Shown in pieces: positions 53,432 to 61,742 of a DNA stretch of 64,000 nucleotides. The notes below the pieces were generated by a model that did no database searches, was not told the DNA's origin, and worked only from the letters and a program-made list of their open reading frames with translations. The first letter of the stretch is position 1; every line of letters begins with the position of its first letter. A program made the translations under genes and the position numbers. Source of the DNA: Promethearchaeia archaeon (lineage in GTDB: Archaea; Asgardarchaeota; Lokiarchaeia; Sigyniarchaeales; SOKP01); NCBI GenBank assembly GCA_029856125.1, contig JAHQWJ010000007.1, positions 1-64,000 of the forward strand, given 5' to 3'.

Positions 53432-53935
53432 ATGATTGAAAATACAGAACGGTATATACTATGTAAATTAGGAGGTTTCGATTTATCTAATCCAGAGATT
53501 GTCATCTCCTATCCTACTCTTGATCCTACCCTCAGCGAATCAGAGGATTTACTTTCTAAATGTCTCCCAATAGGTATTAATAGTGGAGATTTTTCAGTTA
53601 GCAAATATAGTAAGTGTAATGTTTTGTCATATGCATTCAAAATAGAACATGAAGAAGAAAGAAACGATTTATTAACAATTTCTATTCTTTTAAAGAAAAA
53701 GTTAAATGTTGATGTTTACAAACCAGTTTTAGAGAACATTATCTCTACATTGAAATATTGCGACCTGCTAACTGAAAAAATTTTGGCAGATTATATTCAA
53801 ACTATTTATAATGGTATTAATGAAGAAAAATTAATATTGATCGATGGTGTTCCTATCGATCTATCAATCATTTTTAAAGAGATAAGATCAAAAATATTTA
53901 AACCAAGACCTGAAGTAAAAGGGAGTTTTTTCTGA
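53432..53935 (+). CDS. Longin-like soluble protein of GTPase cassette 2
   Basis: This 167-residue homologue of the first gene of cassette 1 has the same order of elements: YILCKLGGFDLSNPEIVISY, then a strand with VLSYAFKIEHEEERNDLLTI, the helix YKPVLENIISTLKYC, and the C-terminal RPEVKGSFF. The conserved KLGG, NPEI and KGSF positions set this small family apart. Longin-like fold by pattern only. The TGA stop overlaps the ATG of the next gene by one base, and GGGAG nine bases before that ATG lies inside the codons of the KGSF motif. It probably acts with the GTPase two genes later. Confidence 0.8.
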   Translation: MIENTERYILCKLGGFDLSNPEIVISYPTLDPTLSESEDLLSKCLPIGINSGDFSVSKYSKCNVLSYAFKIEHEEERNDLLTISILLKKKLNVDVYKPVLENIISTLKYCDLLTEKILADYIQTIYNGINEEKLILIDGVPIDLSIIFKEIRSKIFKPRPEVKGSFF

Positions 53936-54588
53936 TGTTAGGACAAGCAGTTGATATAATAGAACTTATGGCAAATTATCTTGGAATTATTATTATTCCA
54001 ATTATGACGATCATTTTGGGTAGAAAAGTGATTTTAGAAAGAAGAGAAATAGAAAAGCTTAATATGATTAGATTTATTATTTTTTGCATTTTCTTAACGC
54101 TTTCCTGGATGCTAATATGGGAGTTTATTTATGAAAGCACACCGCTCGGTGATGTTCTCAATGTAGAATTAATAATCTCAATTAACACATTTTCGTTTTA
54201 TAGTTTTGGCTTAGGATTAATGATCACTCTAGCTATATCAATGGTGAGTTATACAAATCGATGGGAGTCGCTATATTACATATCCTTTTTTATATTCGCA
54301 GGAATGTTTATCGTATTTTTGTCAACAGAAATATCTATTTTTCTTCTTCCTTATGTTTTTGCGGGTGGAGTAATAGCAGTTGTGTTTTTATTTGCTACTG
54401 GGTTTAAATTTAAAGATAATAGCTCATTAGGGCTGGCTATCTTTGCTACTCTCATTTTTCCAACCCTAATAGCAGAAAAAACGATAGTTGGACAGATGTT
54501 AAGTTTAATATATCCTATTTTTGGGTTAATTTTCGCCCTCGGTTATTTCAAATTATTTAAAGCAAAGGTGGTTGAGCAAAATGAGTGA
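53935..54588 (+). CDS. First polytopic membrane protein of cassette 2 (about seven helices)
   Basis: This 217-residue counterpart of the cassette 1 gene at 41264 has the same size and about seven hydrophobic helices. Matching features are IIIPIMTIILGRKVI (helix 1 and basic loop), NMIRFIIFCIFLTLSW (helix 2), SFYSFGLGLMITLAIS (helix 3), NRW, and FKFKDNSSLGLAIFA before helix 6. The family is not recognised. It overlaps both neighbours, at its start by one base and at its end by eight bases, so translation of the three genes is coupled. Confidence 0.8.
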   Translation: MLGQAVDIIELMANYLGIIIIPIMTIILGRKVILERREIEKLNMIRFIIFCIFLTLSWMLIWEFIYESTPLGDVLNVELIISINTFSFYSFGLGLMITLAISMVSYTNRWESLYYISFFIFAGMFIVFLSTEISIFLLPYVFAGGVIAVVFLFATGFKFKDNSSLGLAIFATLIFPTLIAEKTIVGQMLSLIYPIFGLIFALGYFKLFKAKVVEQNE

Positions 54589-55228
54589 TTTACCAATATT
54601 TTTATTATTAGAAGTTGTTTTTTTGGTTTTTTGCATCGTTACAATACTGATTATTCTCAGAACATACTTAGAGATTAGGGAATCTATTTATCTTGGATTA
54701 ATGGTTTTCTTTGCTGCAATGCTTTTTAATTCACTTTTTCGGATTATTAATCTATTCATTACACTAGATTTGACTGTCGGAGTCAAACTAAGCTCATCTA
54801 ACATTATCGCCCTATTAATTTTCAGCATTCAACTGCGATTCTTCCTTTATTTAAAAAAACTAATAAAATTATATTGGCTTCCATTAGTTGCCAGTTTCTA
54901 CATAGGTTTTGGGCTAATTGTAAATGCTTCTCTAATATTTTTTATCTCTTATGCTGTAGTGATCGGTTTTGTTATTCCTGTCATACTATTAAGAGAAGGC
55001 AGAAAAACACGTAACGGTCTTGCCGTTGGACTTGGAATATTCTTTCTAATATATGGACTAAGTAAAATGCTTCAAGTTCCATTCGTACCTGAATTATTAA
55101 GAATTATCGGAATAATTATCTCCACTTTAGCAGTTTTAGAGTTCTTTGATAAGTATCTTTTCTACGATAAGGAAGAAAAAGAAAAAATTCAGAACGCTTG
55201 GATTTCAAAACTAACTGATAAGAAATAA
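54581..55228 (+). CDS. Second polytopic membrane protein of cassette 2 (about seven helices)
   Basis: This protein of about 215 residues is the counterpart of the cassette 1 gene at 41925. It has about seven helices and the shared EGRKTRNGLAVGLGIFFLIY segment. The helix 3 end, IFSIQLRFFLYLKKLIKLYW, then LPL, is also conserved. The start ATG 54581 lies inside the end of the preceding gene and is preceded by AAGGTGG; an in-frame TTG nine bases earlier is an alternative. A 177-base gap with a duplicated promoter separates it from the GTPase gene. Confidence 0.8.
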   Translation: MSDLPIFLLLEVVFLVFCIVTILIILRTYLEIRESIYLGLMVFFAAMLFNSLFRIINLFITLDLTVGVKLSSSNIIALLIFSIQLRFFLYLKKLIKLYWLPLVASFYIGFGLIVNASLIFFISYAVVIGFVIPVILLREGRKTRNGLAVGLGIFFLIYGLSKMLQVPFVPELLRIIGIIISTLAVLEFFDKYLFYDKEEKEKIQNAWISKLTDKK

Positions 55229-55271
55229 AAGGATTCTATGCAAAATAGATAAATTTTTACACTATTCTTTG

Positions 55272-55341
55272 ACTTAAGTTTAAATATAAAAACTCTTACT
55301 ATTTAGTTAAGCTCTATGGTCTAAGGGATAAGGGACATGGA
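55272..55341 (+). promoter_or_regulatory. Duplicated promoter/leader of cassette 2, copy B
   Basis: ACTTAAGTTTAAATA, then AAACTCTTACTATTTA, closely matches the block before the longin-like gene of the same cassette (53330). It places a TATA-like TTTAAATA about 126 bases before the GTPase ATG, which implies a long leader. The shared block suggests that the operon and the GTPase gene are controlled together. Confidence 0.55.
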
Positions 55342-55405
55342 AAAAATTTTTTTGTGTTCAAATCACTCGCTCTAAAAATTATTAAAATAACAGATGTGAG
55401 AAATA

Positions 55406-56305
55406 ATGGGTGTTAAAAATATTTTGCATAAACTTTTCGCTAAGGAAAAAAAAATTGTAATCTGTGGGTTGGATAATGCAGGAAAAAGCACTTTAGTAAG
55501 CTTTCTCCAAAATGGAACTTTTGTTAAGCACACTCCTACTATGGGAAAGGATTTAACTAAATTAGAAGTTCAAGGTATTCCTATAAATCTTATGGACATG
55601 GGTGGTCAAAAAGATTTTAGAGATATGTGGTTAGGAGAACTCTCAAACGCATCATGTGTAATTTTTATGATAGACGCTTACGCCCAAGAAAGATTTAACG
55701 AAGCGAAAGACGAATTATGGAAACTATCTTCAGTTTTTAAGAAGAAACCATTAATTGTATTAACAAATAAGAACGATATGACTCCAGTAGCTTCCGCGGG
55801 CGATATTATAAAAGCGCTGGACTTGCATAAAATTGATACATTTGAAATACTTCCTATTTCCTGCAAAACGGGATATGGTATTGTATCAGCATTCACGAAA
55901 ATTTATCACAAACTTACTGGGAAACAGTTAGGTAATGCAGTAACTCCTAAGGCAGTAACAGTTTTTGATAGGGGAGGAGTCCCATTGACATCTTCTTCCA
56001 ATCAAGATATCTTGCATGGCGGTTTATTTGCTGCTATTACTCAATACGCTAAAGAGTCTTTTAACTCTGAACTAAATCAAATTAGACTTGAGGGTAATAT
56101 TATCCTTTTTAAACGGACTAACCACCTAATGGGATCGATAGTTCTCAGAGAAGAGGATAGTGAAATGATAAAAGAAGCAGAAGTAGGATTAGGTGAATTG
56201 CTTTCACATCTTGAACATATGTGCCCTGAACTTGAAAAGGAGCAAACGGATGCTAAAAAAATTGAGTATTTAGTCGAGCAATACTCTTCAAATCTTATGA
56301 ATTAA
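55406..56305 (+). CDS. Arf-like GTPase with C-terminal longin/roadblock-like domain, cassette 2
   Basis: This 299-residue homologue of the cassette 1 GTPase is similar along its whole length. The G motifs are GLDNAGKS (21-28), a threonine in TPTMGKD, DMGGQ (64-68), NKND (121-124) and SCK. The N-terminus MGVKNILHKLF again has Gly2 and an amphipathic pattern. The C-terminal domain (AVTVFDRGGVPLTSSSNQD to GSIVLREEDSEMIKEAEVGL) and the tail KKIEYLVEQYSSNLM match the first copy. Retention of all catalytic residues in both copies suggests that both are active. It is separated from the membrane-protein genes by its own promoter and is convergent with thiDN. Confidence 0.9.
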   Translation: MGVKNILHKLFAKEKKIVICGLDNAGKSTLVSFLQNGTFVKHTPTMGKDLTKLEVQGIPINLMDMGGQKDFRDMWLGELSNASCVIFMIDAYAQERFNEAKDELWKLSSVFKKKPLIVLTNKNDMTPVASAGDIIKALDLHKIDTFEILPISCKTGYGIVSAFTKIYHKLTGKQLGNAVTPKAVTVFDRGGVPLTSSSNQDILHGGLFAAITQYAKESFNSELNQIRLEGNIILFKRTNHLMGSIVLREEDSEMIKEAEVGLGELLSHLEHMCPELEKEQTDAKKIEYLVEQYSSNLMN

Positions 56306-57795: not shown

Positions 57796-58371
57796 TTATT
57801 TAATTCTTTCATACGCCCATTTTGCTTTATCATCTAAACCTAAGGCTTCATATGCCTTTCCAAGGAAAAGAAATCCCTCGGGATGGTCGTATTTTTCTTT
57901 TACTAATTTAAATAACTGATTAATTGCCAGATCATAACGACCTCTCACGTAATTAATCTTACCTTTTAAAAATAAAATATCTTGCCCCTTTTGGATTGAG
58001 TTACTACCGTTATTATGTAAGTCTAACCGTGATAAAGCGTAGTCATACTCTTGTTCGTTAATTAGAATATCAATGGATTCGATAAACTTTAGAAAGGACA
58101 TTTTCGAGGCAATTACTTCCATTTTTTTTAACTCTTCTGTTTTGAGTTCGTTATTTAATGCTGTCAGCTTCTCCTCCTCTCTAAGTTTTATAAAATCTTT
58201 GAACTTGTCAAGCACTCCGTTTGAATATGGAGCTCTACATAATGGACAATTAGAAGAATGAGGTAACCACTCCTTCAAACAATCAGTATGAGCCGAGTGC
58301 CCATTAGGACAATTTTGAACCGAATCTACGCCTTCAATTATACCCAAATGACAAATTATACAACTAGCCAT
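57796..58371 (-). CDS. RING-H2 finger protein with TPR-like helices
   Basis: This 191-residue protein has a complete RING-H2 metal-binding pattern at the N-terminus: Cys4, Cys7, Cys21, His25, His28, Cys31, Cys42 and Cys45 (C-x2-C-x13-C-x3-H-x2-H-x2-C-x10-C-x2-C). In eukaryotes RING-H2 domains recruit ubiquitin E2 enzymes. The C-terminal part (about 85-191) is helical with TPR-like pairs (e.g. LKGKINYVRGRYDLAINQL and LFLGKAYEALGLDDKA). A short coiled coil lies between. E3-type activity is inferred; E1, E2 and ubiquitin genes are not in this window. It is divergent from the roadblock-GTPase pair. Confidence 0.88.
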   Translation of the reverse strand: MASCIICHLGIIEGVDSVQNCPNGHSAHTDCLKEWLPHSSNCPLCRAPYSNGVLDKFKDFIKLREEEKLTALNNELKTEELKKMEVIASKMSFLKFIESIDILINEQEYDYALSRLDLHNNGSNSIQKGQDILFLKGKINYVRGRYDLAINQLFKLVKEKYDHPEGFLFLGKAYEALGLDDKAKWAYERIK

Positions 58372-58474: not shown

Positions 58475-60040
58475 ATGTCAGTAAATAAAAAGCGATTGTT
58501 CAATGAGCTCCTAACAAAATTTTTACTAGCGTATGAAGATGTGGATGCTCTGATTGTATCTGATCATGAAGGACTTATAATTGCTGGGCAAAAAAGAGCA
58601 TCTGTGGACATGGAATTGGTATCTGTTTTAACAGTTTTAATCAATCCTCTTTTAGAAAGAATTAGAGAAGAATTTGCTTTCAAAAAATTTGGATCAGCTA
58701 GCTTTGACACCGAAAACAATCGATTGTTGTTTATATCTATTGACGAGAATATAACTCTCAGTGTTGTATTAGATACACTATCATCCATTGATAAAATTAG
58801 CCCATATGCCTATTTTTTGGCAGAAAAAACAGCTCAAATTATTTATGCTGGAGAAAACGATAACATTCAAGTCTCAATACCCAACTTCGACACAGAATCC
58901 GAAAGCTTAAAGGAACCCGATAGAATAAAAGATCAAATCTACCAATTGCGTTTAGATTCAGGGGGGATCTATAAATTTAAATTTATAATCGTAGGTGACA
59001 AAGCTGTTGGAAAATCTTCGATTGTAAGGAGATTTGTAGAAAATAGATTTTCTCTTGATTATAGGTCTACTCTTGGCTTAAATGTTCTCTCTCATTCATT
59101 AGGATTCTACGGAAATGAAGTTTACTTTTCACTTTGGGATGTAGGTGCGCAGGAATATTTCAAACGCTTTAGAAAAACTTATTATATAGGCGCACAAGCT
59201 GCTTTCATCGTGTTTGATGTTTGTAAAAGAGATACCTTTGCAAATGTGAAAGTATGGTATAAAGAACTAGAAGATTTTCTCCATAAAAAAAATATACCAA
59301 TTGTAATTGTAGGTAATAAAATAGATTTAGCAGATCAGAGAAGTGTAGAGTATAAAGAGGGAATTGAGCTAGTCGAAGAGCTTACCAAAGAAAGTGTTGA
59401 AAGTTATTTCTCGTATATTGAAACCAGCGCATTAACCGGCGAAAATATCGAAGATGCGTTTAGTTTAATTGCTTACCATTACATAATGAAGAGTAAAGAG
59501 AGGGAGGAGCAAAGATTAAAAGAGAGCTTAATGGATCAAATCAATTCGATATTAGAGAAAAGAGGAAAATTAACCATCTCTTTTATTACTGAAAATCCAT
59601 ATTGGAGCCCAGGATTGCAGATTCTAAATGATGTTAATACATTATGTGAGTGTGAAAAACTAATAGATGATAAAGATAAAAGATTGTATAAATACTCCAA
59701 TGGGCTAATTATTAAGAATTTTTTATTCGATAACTTAGATGTAAAAGATTCTGATAGCGTATTTGTAATATTCGACGCCAGAAAAAAAACACACATCGAG
59801 CAAAAATGGAAAGATGTAGTTGTGAACATTATAAGCAATTTAAAGGAAAATAAAGTAGCACTAATTGGCGTGAGAGTATCAGATGAGACTGATTGGTCTA
59901 ACATAATGGAAGAATTTAATGTTAATCAATTCCTAGAGAAGAAAATGGTATCTCTTTTGTTTTTTAAGATTGGCTTCGAGTATAGGCTGGAAATATATGA
60001 TCAACTTGATGTAATGTTTAGTACAATTACAAACTTATGA
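58475..60040 (+). CDS. Roadblock - Rab-like GTPase - unknown C-terminal domain protein, copy 1
   Basis: This 521-residue three-domain protein starts with a roadblock/LC7 domain (1-125, e.g. VDALIVSDHEGLIIAGQK and LINPLLERIREEFAFKKFG). A Rab-like GTPase follows (165-345): P-loop GDKAVGKSS (174-182), Thr199, WDVGAQ (221-226), NKID (281-284) and ETSAL. In switch II the usual DxAGQ is shifted to DVGAQ, so the glutamine is kept but the glycine order differs. The last ~170 residues are an alpha/beta domain I do not recognise, e.g. SDSVFVIFDARKK and KVALIGVRVSDETDW. The roadblock domain precedes rather than follows the GTPase, unlike Rag proteins. It is tandem with a paralogue. Confidence 0.9.
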   Translation: MSVNKKRLFNELLTKFLLAYEDVDALIVSDHEGLIIAGQKRASVDMELVSVLTVLINPLLERIREEFAFKKFGSASFDTENNRLLFISIDENITLSVVLDTLSSIDKISPYAYFLAEKTAQIIYAGENDNIQVSIPNFDTESESLKEPDRIKDQIYQLRLDSGGIYKFKFIIVGDKAVGKSSIVRRFVENRFSLDYRSTLGLNVLSHSLGFYGNEVYFSLWDVGAQEYFKRFRKTYYIGAQAAFIVFDVCKRDTFANVKVWYKELEDFLHKKNIPIVIVGNKIDLADQRSVEYKEGIELVEELTKESVESYFSYIETSALTGENIEDAFSLIAYHYIMKSKEREEQRLKESLMDQINSILEKRGKLTISFITENPYWSPGLQILNDVNTLCECEKLIDDKDKRLYKYSNGLIIKNFLFDNLDVKDSDSVFVIFDARKKTHIEQKWKDVVVNIISNLKENKVALIGVRVSDETDWSNIMEEFNVNQFLEKKMVSLLFFKIGFEYRLEIYDQLDVMFSTITNL

Positions 60041-60179
60041 AATTTTTTATTCTATATTAGTGAGTATTAGCGTGGATAGTTTATATTTTCAAATAACTAC
60101 TTTTAAAAGCAAGTTAAATTATATTATTGATAAGAACATTTTCTGCTTGATCCAATTCAAAAATGTGTGGTGTATCCAC

Positions 60180-61742
60180 TTGTCAATTAATAGAAAACGA
60201 CTATTCGACGAGATTCTTAACAATTTTCTAGAAAGATTTTCTGATGTTGAAGCAATTATCGTTTCAGATCATGAAGGTTTCGTTATCGCCGGAGAAAAAA
60301 GAAAAGACACTGAAAGTGATCTAGAAATCGTATCAGTGTTGACGACTCTGATAAATCCCGTTTTAGAAAGAATAAGAAATGAATTTGCCTTCAAGAAATT
60401 TGGAACTGCTTCGTTCGACACGGATGAGCATCGCTTAATGTTTATTACAATTGACGAAGAAAGAATTTTAAGCATAATTTTTAATAGCATGGCATCAGTT
60501 GAAAAAGTTGCACCATATACCTATTTCTTAGCTGAGAAAACTGCTCAAATACTTAATTCTGGTGAGGATGATACACTTCAATTAGTGATTCCTGATTTTG
60601 ACTCTGATACAGAAAGGCATGAAAAGCTTAAAGAATCTATTTGTCAATCAGAAATCGATGATTGTGTAAATTACAACTTTAAATTCGTTATTATAGGAAA
60701 CCACGAGGTAGGAAAAACTTCTCTAATACGACAATTCGTAGAAAGAAAGTTTTTGCACGATTATCGAGCAACCATAGGATTAAACATTTTCGCTCATAAT
60801 TTTGACTTTCAGGGAAACGAAATTAGTGTCCAACTCTGGGATATAGGTGCGCAGCAATATTTTAAAAGGTTTCGCAAGATATACTACAACGGTGCAGAAG
60901 CGGCCTTTATTGTCTTTGATATTACTAACAGAGAATCATTTGGGAAAATCAAAGATTGGTATAAAGAGATTAATCAGCTCATTGATGAAACAAATATCCC
61001 TATAGTTATAGTGGGGAATAAAGATGATTTAGCTGGACAGAGAGTAATATCCACAGCTGAAGGCGAAGCATTAGCAAAATCTTTGTCAGAAACCGGGTTG
61101 TCCTATATAGAGACGAGCGCTTTAACTGGAAGTAATGTCAAAGACGCCTTTGAATTAATGGCGTACCATTATATCATTAAAAGTAAAAAAAAGGAAAAAG
61201 ATCAAATCCAGGAAAGTCTAACAGAAGCAATAATTTCAACGTTAAAAGAGCTTATTATATTAGAATTAACGTTTATCACGGACGATTTTAATTGGAATCC
61301 CGGATTCCAGACGATCGTAAATTTAGAGAAATTAGGCGAATTCTCGAAGTTAAAAGACAACCACAGCGAAAAACTATATCCCTACAAAAATGGGTTGATA
61401 ATAAGTAGTTATATGTATGACGAATTCAACCTCTCTAATTCGGATGGTGTTTTTATCATCTTTGACGCTCGAAATAAGGAGCACATTGATCCAGAATGGA
61501 AAAATATACTTATGAGGACAATCAAAAAGATAAGAAAAAAACGAGCTGTTATTGTAGGGCTTCGAGTTTCCGACGATAAAAACTACCCACAATTGATGGA
61601 TGAATTTGTTATCGACAATGATTTAGAAGAGAAAATCGTATCAGTTCTCTTCCTCAAAATTGGTACCGACTACAGAGAAAAAATGTACGATCACCTTATA
61701 CTCATGTTAGAACTTATTGTTAACACGAGAAAATTAAAATAA
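60180..61742 (+). CDS. Roadblock - Rab-like GTPase - unknown C-terminal domain protein, copy 2
   Basis: This tandem paralogue of the preceding gene has the same three domains. The roadblock part includes VEAIIVSDHEGFVIAGEK. The GTPase has GNHEVGKTS, DYRATIGLN, WDIGAQ, NKDD and ETSAL. The C-terminal domain includes SDGVFIIFDARNKEH and VIVGLRVSDDKNYP. I place the start at TTG 60180: from there the product is 520 residues and aligns from its first residue with copy 1 (MSINRKRLFDEIL against MSVNKKRLFNELL). The open frame runs 120 bases further upstream, but that part has no counterpart in copy 1. Both copies keep all nucleotide-binding motifs, so both are probably active. Confidence 0.9.
   Translation: MSINRKRLFDEILNNFLERFSDVEAIIVSDHEGFVIAGEKRKDTESDLEIVSVLTTLINPVLERIRNEFAFKKFGTASFDTDEHRLMFITIDEERILSIIFNSMASVEKVAPYTYFLAEKTAQILNSGEDDTLQLVIPDFDSDTERHEKLKESICQSEIDDCVNYNFKFVIIGNHEVGKTSLIRQFVERKFLHDYRATIGLNIFAHNFDFQGNEISVQLWDIGAQQYFKRFRKIYYNGAEAAFIVFDITNRESFGKIKDWYKEINQLIDETNIPIVIVGNKDDLAGQRVISTAEGEALAKSLSETGLSYIETSALTGSNVKDAFELMAYHYIIKSKKKEKDQIQESLTEAIISTLKELIILELTFITDDFNWNPGFQTIVNLEKLGEFSKLKDNHSEKLYPYKNGLIISSYMYDEFNLSNSDGVFIIFDARNKEHIDPEWKNILMRTIKKIRKKRAVIVGLRVSDDKNYPQLMDEFVIDNDLEEKIVSVLFLKIGTDYREKMYDHLILMLELIVNTRKLK

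Follow-up and report, generated by a model that had tools for sequence, protein, structure and literature searches.

A predicted pseudoGTPase domain at the C-terminus of tandem Lokiarchaeal proteins with a roadblock and a Rab-like GTPase domain

PseudoGTPases are relatively few among proteins and mostly eukaryotic. Those already described include the pG1 and pG2 domains of p190RhoGAP, which belong to class i (PMC5593906), and the region containing them masks the GTPase-activating protein (GAP) domain of the same protein in cis (PMC9840978). From the Asgard archaea, a roadblock (RB) domain fused to a Ras-like GTPase has been reported for Lokiarchaeum in box 1 of PMC4917890, and a survey of MK-D1 mentions RB-GTPase architectures together with domains of unknown function marked "?" (PMC10933270). 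Here we analyse a window of 64,000 nucleotides from a Lokiarchaeal genome (contig JAHQWJ010000007.1), in which two adjacent genes, called A and B, each encode a roadblock domain, a Rab-like GTPase domain and a third, C-terminal domain. Sequence profiles and a predicted fold give good support to this third domain being a pseudoGTPase that shares its chain with an intact GTPase, and it is the new part, the RB-GTPase fusion being already known. An earlier note on this DNA had described two neighbouring proteins with a roadblock, a Rab-like GTPase and a conserved alpha/beta domain, a description borne out by the open reading frames (ORFs), Pfam, profile searches and conservation. The note had also drawn attention to a roadblock and a GTPase sharing one chain. 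That fusion is real but not new in itself, since it is known from Lokiarchaeum and MK-D1 and since the same genome encodes at least three RB-GTPase proteins that lack a third domain of this kind.

The third domain of A has no Pfam match up to E = 1, other members of the family give scattered weak matches only, and the NCBIfam matches are essentially GTPase matches to the middle domain. The earlier note had called the domain unrecognised, which holds as regards Pfam, and the domain corresponds to no described family of GTPase-associated domains. Its conserved alpha/beta character had been seen correctly, but its identity as a degenerate GTPase fold had been missed. Run against all PDB sequences, the third-domain profile found small GTPases exclusively in all nine matches. 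The best was Rnd1 (E = 1.6e-4 with a profile of 30 sequences and 3.5e-5 with one of 51), further matches included Rnd3, a Rho-like GTPase and Plasmodium Arf1, and the region matched was the beta4-alpha3-beta5 core. Local hhalign of the third domain with the GTPase of its own chain aligned the two in the same register with a score of 27.7, against a mean of 13.9 and a maximum of 27.5 for 150 column shuffles and 13.5 for a reversed control. When applied to a distant Asgard family, the third-domain profile has its weakest matches in the beta4-alpha5 part of Arf-like GTPases.

The VIA-align list for the whole chain was filled by Rab chains and was therefore uninformative for the roadblock and third domains, so the third domain was modelled separately. 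Its template-free AlphaFold2 (AF2) model (predicted local distance difference test score 92.9, predicted template modelling score [pTM] 0.89) is a helix followed by b-a-b-b-b-b-a-b-a-a-b-a, with the strand order and an interswitch-like hairpin as in Arf. The top Foldseek matches of this model were Arf1 and Rab3, and all 50 entries listed by VIA-align were Arf/Sar proteins. Best among them was the Asgard protein HodArfR1 in its GDP form (Z 14.2, root-mean-square deviation 3.3, 163 of 177 residues), well above the Z of 7-8 that models without a match usually reach according to the tool. Arf proteins share 7-11% of their residues with the domain, and the sequence matches instead favour Rho-family cores. 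The motif sites are degenerate in all members: ENPYWSPG stands at the P-loop site, GVRVSD at the NKxD site and FKIG at the SAK site, and DxxG is gone. Pro379 and Gly465 are invariant, and about 30 positions are strongly conserved. Because a GTPase fold with degraded G motifs fits the definition given in PMC5593906, we regard the third domain as a pseudoGTPase, and this assignment is the strongest part of the analysis. A second roadblock or a longin domain was also considered and rejected, as the topology differs and the hhalign probability to the RB domain is 0.2%.

A domain profile search found the third domain in 57 of the 65 genomes of the source organism's own Lokiarchaeal family (f1), a conservation that excludes chance. 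Outside this family, single occurrences come from G084 of family f2 and from two f4 genomes, as a full RB-GTPase-third-domain frame of 541 amino acids in G158 and as a fragment in G160; the profile search found none in eight f3 genomes. Every complete copy examined carries the roadblock and the GTPase in the same chain as the third domain, and genomes without the fusion retain shorter RB-GTPases. A scan with GTPase motifs as bait covered species genomes of bacteria and archaea, about 85,000 in number, and among the best 80 loci full-length relatives came from Lokiarchaeota only; a lone third domain elsewhere could escape a scan of this design. The source genome is 3.69 Mb in size, and the nearest named orthologue, 91% identical, is that of "Candidatus Lokiarchaeota archaeon isolate bin41". 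Genome G101 has two extra copies of the RB-GTPase-pseudoGTPase architecture (L101 4803-6365 and 8824-10419), the first of which evolves very fast, reads DxGSQ at G3, has an unusual amino-acid composition and is possibly drifting to further degeneration.

The middle domain matches Pfam Ras in both copies and has the fold of Rab8a (Table 1). An Asgard Rab and Rab11 are its nearest relatives in the PDB. Motifs G1-G5 are retained in all 51 aligned members, mostly with Ala for Gly in G3. Both window chains, which end beyond the pseudoGTPase in ...STITNL and ...VNTRKLK, lack prenylation cysteines at the C-terminus, and for this reason we call the domain Rab-like and not a Rab in the strict sense. 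The switch II sequence WDxGAQ, noted earlier as common to both copies, proved to be family-wide: G3 reads DxGAQ in 64 of 70 members, with DxGGQ in four, DxGSQ in one and DxGAH in one. None of 12 RB-GTPase paralogues has GAQ (ten read DxGGQ, the remainder DxSGQ or DxAGQ), and Ala at the site of Ras Gly60 occurs in just one of the 28 other GTPases of the same genome. The G60A mutant of H-Ras is mostly in state 1, the state that does not signal, and its intrinsic GTPase activity is drastically impaired (PMC4867591). By analogy, the distinct mechanism that the earlier note had read from the altered switch II is plausible, and it can now be attached specifically to the substitution of Ras Gly60. 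An f4 member that has the third domain reads DFGGQ, so the Ala may have been gained after the pseudoGTPase was added, as far as a few basal sequences can indicate. The switch I Arg (DYRATIG) was considered as an intrinsic arginine finger like that of MglA and rejected, since it sits two residues ahead of the switch I Thr. Rabs often have Lys at that position, and the arginine finger in MglA and Thor-Rab immediately precedes the Thr.

The predicted topology, together with the profile matches, supports a roadblock identity for the N-terminal domain, upholding the earlier view that this part is roadblock-like. Pfam Robl_LC7 stays under the cut-off against the single proteins (E = 0.18 and 0.12) and gives 0.012 for the domain alone. 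A profile built from the family and the RB-GTPase paralogues matched roadblock-type proteins in the PDB, with a best E of 2e-7, and a profile from the family alone gave one match, to a roadblock protein, at E = 0.037. In the full-chain AF2 model the A domain has the topology a-bb-a-bbb-a. This is the same as that of the crystallised Asgard RBs, for which PMC10933270 describes a sheet of five strands, with a single helix inserted between the second strand and the third, and N- and C-terminal helices on the opposite side.

We consider it on balance probable that these proteins are self-contained switches, dimerised by the roadblock, in which the pseudoGTPase serves as an unchanging module for docking or regulation. 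Judging from the RB family, it is most likely through the roadblock that the chain forms a dimer, either a homodimer or, where both copies exist, an A/B heterodimer, and this domain would offer a platform of the kind on which MglB and Ragulator handle GTPases. The Rab-like domain would bind GTP, with the Ala of G3, at a site where glycine is normally invariant, expected, on the H-Ras G60A analogy, to weaken the GTP-induced closing of the switch and to slow hydrolysis; because closure and hydrolysis would be hampered in this way, the output may depend on a bound partner. A continuous helix predicted by AF2 at residues 325-363 connects alpha5 of the active G domain to the pseudoGTPase. With its Arf-GDP-like shape, the pseudoGTPase is presumably nucleotide-independent and would be the fixed module, probably a built-in regulatory or docking partner that either holds the switch down or recruits an effector.

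The best candidate for a partner of the fusion proteins is a RING-TPR protein encoded divergently from A, through which we infer a possible link to ubiquitin. In 51 of the 54 genomes with a strong orthologue, the RING-TPR gene is divergent from and adjoins the pseudoGTPase gene, and in the other three the two matches lie on different contigs. Within f1, 54 of the 57 genomes that have the fusion also have the orthologue, whereas all eight genomes without the fusion lack it (Fisher p = 3e-8, a value that ignores shared ancestry and the joint loss, or joint assembly gaps, of neighbours). A bolder proposal, which we regard as tentative and rather doubtful, is a four-G-domain switch of Rab-like G domains and Arf-shaped dead G domains, dimerised by the roadblock and made partner-dependent by the G3 Ala, with a RING ubiquitin ligase as its dedicated partner or target. 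If true, this would combine pseudoGTPase regulation in a prokaryote with a link between Asgard small GTPases and RING proteins.

Several observations weigh against the proposal of an RB-dimerised switch with a fixed pseudoGTPase module and a RING-TPR partner. The genes thiC and thiD and a dehydrogenase gene are also conserved near the locus, so synteny alone could account for much of the RING-TPR link, and f3 genomes keep the RING-TPR gene without the fusion. The full-chain AF2 model, made for a single chain, has a pTM of 0.56 and does not fix the relative placement of the domains. In the active GTPase, the residue at Ras position 59 has become Gly and may compensate for the Ala at position 60, and four family members carry GGQ in G3. 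Global hhalign of the third domain against its own GTPase scored 0.4, under most shuffles, so the sequence homology rests on one core segment, the local beta4-beta5 match, and the remainder on the predicted fold.

How the two copies relate bears on another explanation, in which A and B form an obligate heterodimer through their RB domains, as in Gtr1/Gtr2 or RagA/RagC, and divide the labour between them. Most genomes of genera g1 and g8 have the tandem pair on the same strand, which would suit such a division; the remaining genera carry a single copy, or an additional one at another place in the genome. A tendency of the tree to separate A-type from B-type copies (supports 86 and 90, with several open forks) would suit it too, and suggests that the pair arose by an old duplication followed by losses. 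A parallel may be seen in the operonic pair of Rag-like GTPases of MK-D1 that PMC10933270 gives as predicted to join via RB. However, several genera have a single gene, of either A or B type, and differences fixed between A and B are not enriched in the roadblock (4 of 128 positions; the GTPase has 5 in 181 and the pseudoGTPase 6 in 177), and we find an obligate heterodimer unlikely. The alignment of A with B, which gives 51% identity overall, 62% in the roadblock, 58% in the GTPase and 39% in the third domain, also touches on the idea that the pseudoGTPase plays no part in regulation and is just a leftover of structure or a tail that stabilises a protein acting like the shorter RB-GTPases of the cell. 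The third domain is indeed the least conserved of the three, with a mean entropy of 1.69 against about 1.2 for the roadblock and GTPase, but its retention in every complete copy, its invariant and strongly conserved residues and its presence in three families of the order make this very improbable. As little credit can be given to an unrelated Rossmann or flavodoxin-like module, such as a ligand sensor, whose likeness to GTPases would come solely from the general similarity of three-layer alpha/beta folds: the flavin proteins SsuE and Flv1 do stand at Foldseek ranks 10 and 12, identity to Arf proteins is low, and conservation is higher at the pocket mouth than at the other positions (rank 4 of 155 shifts), a pattern that might reflect a ligand, but the PDB sequence matches, the VIA-align entries, the Arf strand order and the interswitch-like hairpin all point to a small GTPase.

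The coordinates of the features are collected in Table 1. Gene B has no ATG start, and its longest ORF runs for 560 amino acids from GTG 60060 to 61742. Homology to copy A and to the orthologues makes TTG 60180 (MSINRKRLF...) the most likely start, leaving 140 bases between A and B (60041-60179); automatic annotation may wrongly extend B to GTG 60060.

Table 1. Positions in the window of the two fusion genes, their domains and the divergent RING-TPR gene
Feature	Coordinates	Strand	Evidence
Gene A, roadblock - Rab-like GTPase - predicted pseudoGTPase, 521 amino acids, ATG start	58475..60040	+	ORF, Pfam, AF2 model, orthologues
Gene B, 520 amino acids from TTG 60180 (most likely start), architecture as in A	60180..61742	+	ORF, start region, alignment
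A roadblock domain (residues 1-128)	58475..58858	+	PDB profile matches to roadblock-type proteins; topology
A Rab-like G domain (residues 165-340)	58967..59494	+	Ras E=1e-42; VIA-align Z 28 to Rab8a; complete G motifs
A G3 motif DVGAQ (residues 222-226), with Ala where Ras has Gly60	59138..59152	+	Family-wide GAQ
A predicted pseudoGTPase domain (residues 345-521; core 366-520)	59507..60037	+	PDB profile, model, Arf-like Z 14.2, lost motifs
B roadblock domain	60180..60569	+	62% identity to A; roadblock profile
B Rab-like G domain, WDIGAQ	60681..61163	+	Ras E=5e-47
B predicted pseudoGTPase domain	61197..61739	+	39% identity to A counterpart; found with same profile
RING-TPR protein, 191 amino acids, divergent neighbour of A, candidate partner	57796..58371	-	zf-RING_2 E=4e-8 and TPR

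Some related genomes show other arrangements of the same components. G108 encodes two RB-GTPase-pseudoGTPase proteins of 837 and 897 amino acids with a C-terminal TPR array (L130 8956-11466 and 16837-19527; also L092) and has no strong RING-TPR orthologue. The fused TPR array was considered as the TPR of the RING-TPR protein and rejected, its best match in the window being a different TPR protein. A putative GTPase gene beside the RING-TPR gene in f3 genomes (L210 6736-7467, L214 1106-1816) was likewise set aside; it is convergent, has a P-loop-like GxSNVGK and, in L210, gives no Pfam GTPase match. Two f3 genomes have the RING-TPR homologue within longer frames of 706 and 573 amino acids (L209 7804-9921 and L212 6478-8196), and in L209 a second, shorter stretch matches the RING end as well. 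Elsewhere in the window, the interval from thiC to a thiD-type gene holds four genes (53432-56305). Three encode unassigned proteins that are hydrophobic or small, and the fourth an Arf-like GTPase of 299 amino acids with a C-terminal extension of about 120 residues. In the related loci compared, no ORF had one of these four as its best match, and they may be an insertion special to the source genome.

If the switch with a built-in pseudoGTPase is right, the use of a dead GTPase as an intramolecular partner would not be confined to eukaryotes, and the Lokiarchaeal chain would be a compact system in which the roadblock, the active G domain and the dead G domain can be separated one by one. The inventory of Asgard small GTPases would have one of its domains of unknown function assigned, and a RING protein would be flagged as a candidate partner. 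A literature search found no pseudoGTPase described in Asgard archaea, although it left subscription journals largely uncovered and is not proof of absence.

Compared with the described systems, the Asgard RB-GTPase fusions likewise have, within a single chain and in the same cell, a roadblock ahead of a Ras/Rab-like GTPase, but they have no pseudoGTPase, their G3 is mostly DxGGQ and their RB domains are 19-25% identical to that of copy A. A separate frame of about 687 residues (L151 7876-9936) joins an Arf-type GTPase (127-270), a roadblock and a Ras-type GTPase (518-686), apparently with P-loops in both GTPases, and frames of 686-687 amino acids resembling it occur in G127 and G156. In the bacterial MglA/MglB system a roadblock also works with a small GTPase, MglB being described in PMC10933270 as a GAP and guanine nucleotide exchange factor, but the two are separate chains, there is no pseudoGTPase, and the GTPase is of MglA type rather than Rab-like. 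Rag/Gtr proteins with Ragulator are alike in having a GTPase and a roadblock in one chain, the roadblock serving for dimerisation. In Rag, however, the roadblock is C-terminal, whereas here it is N-terminal and the C-terminus is a predicted dead G domain, and neither window protein has a Gtr1_RagA Pfam match. HodArfR1 (PDB 8oul), the best structural match of the third domain, was solved with bound GDP and GTP, in contrast to the degenerate domain described here, and shares about 10% sequence identity with it. The pG1 and pG2 domains of p190RhoGAP resemble the third domain in having a GTPase fold in which each of the five G motifs is degraded, placed in cis to a catalytic domain that they may mask (PMC5593906, PMC9840978), but p190RhoGAP is a eukaryotic GAP whose own GAP domain, rather than a GTPase, is the catalytic partner. 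EhRabX3, a tandem Ras-superfamily GTPase from Entamoeba cited in PMC5593906 and PMC8514894, has two G domains per chain with non-canonical motifs and lacks a roadblock. Set beside the window proteins by their descriptions and not as relatives, p190RhoGAP and EhRabX3 may serve as precedents of principle.

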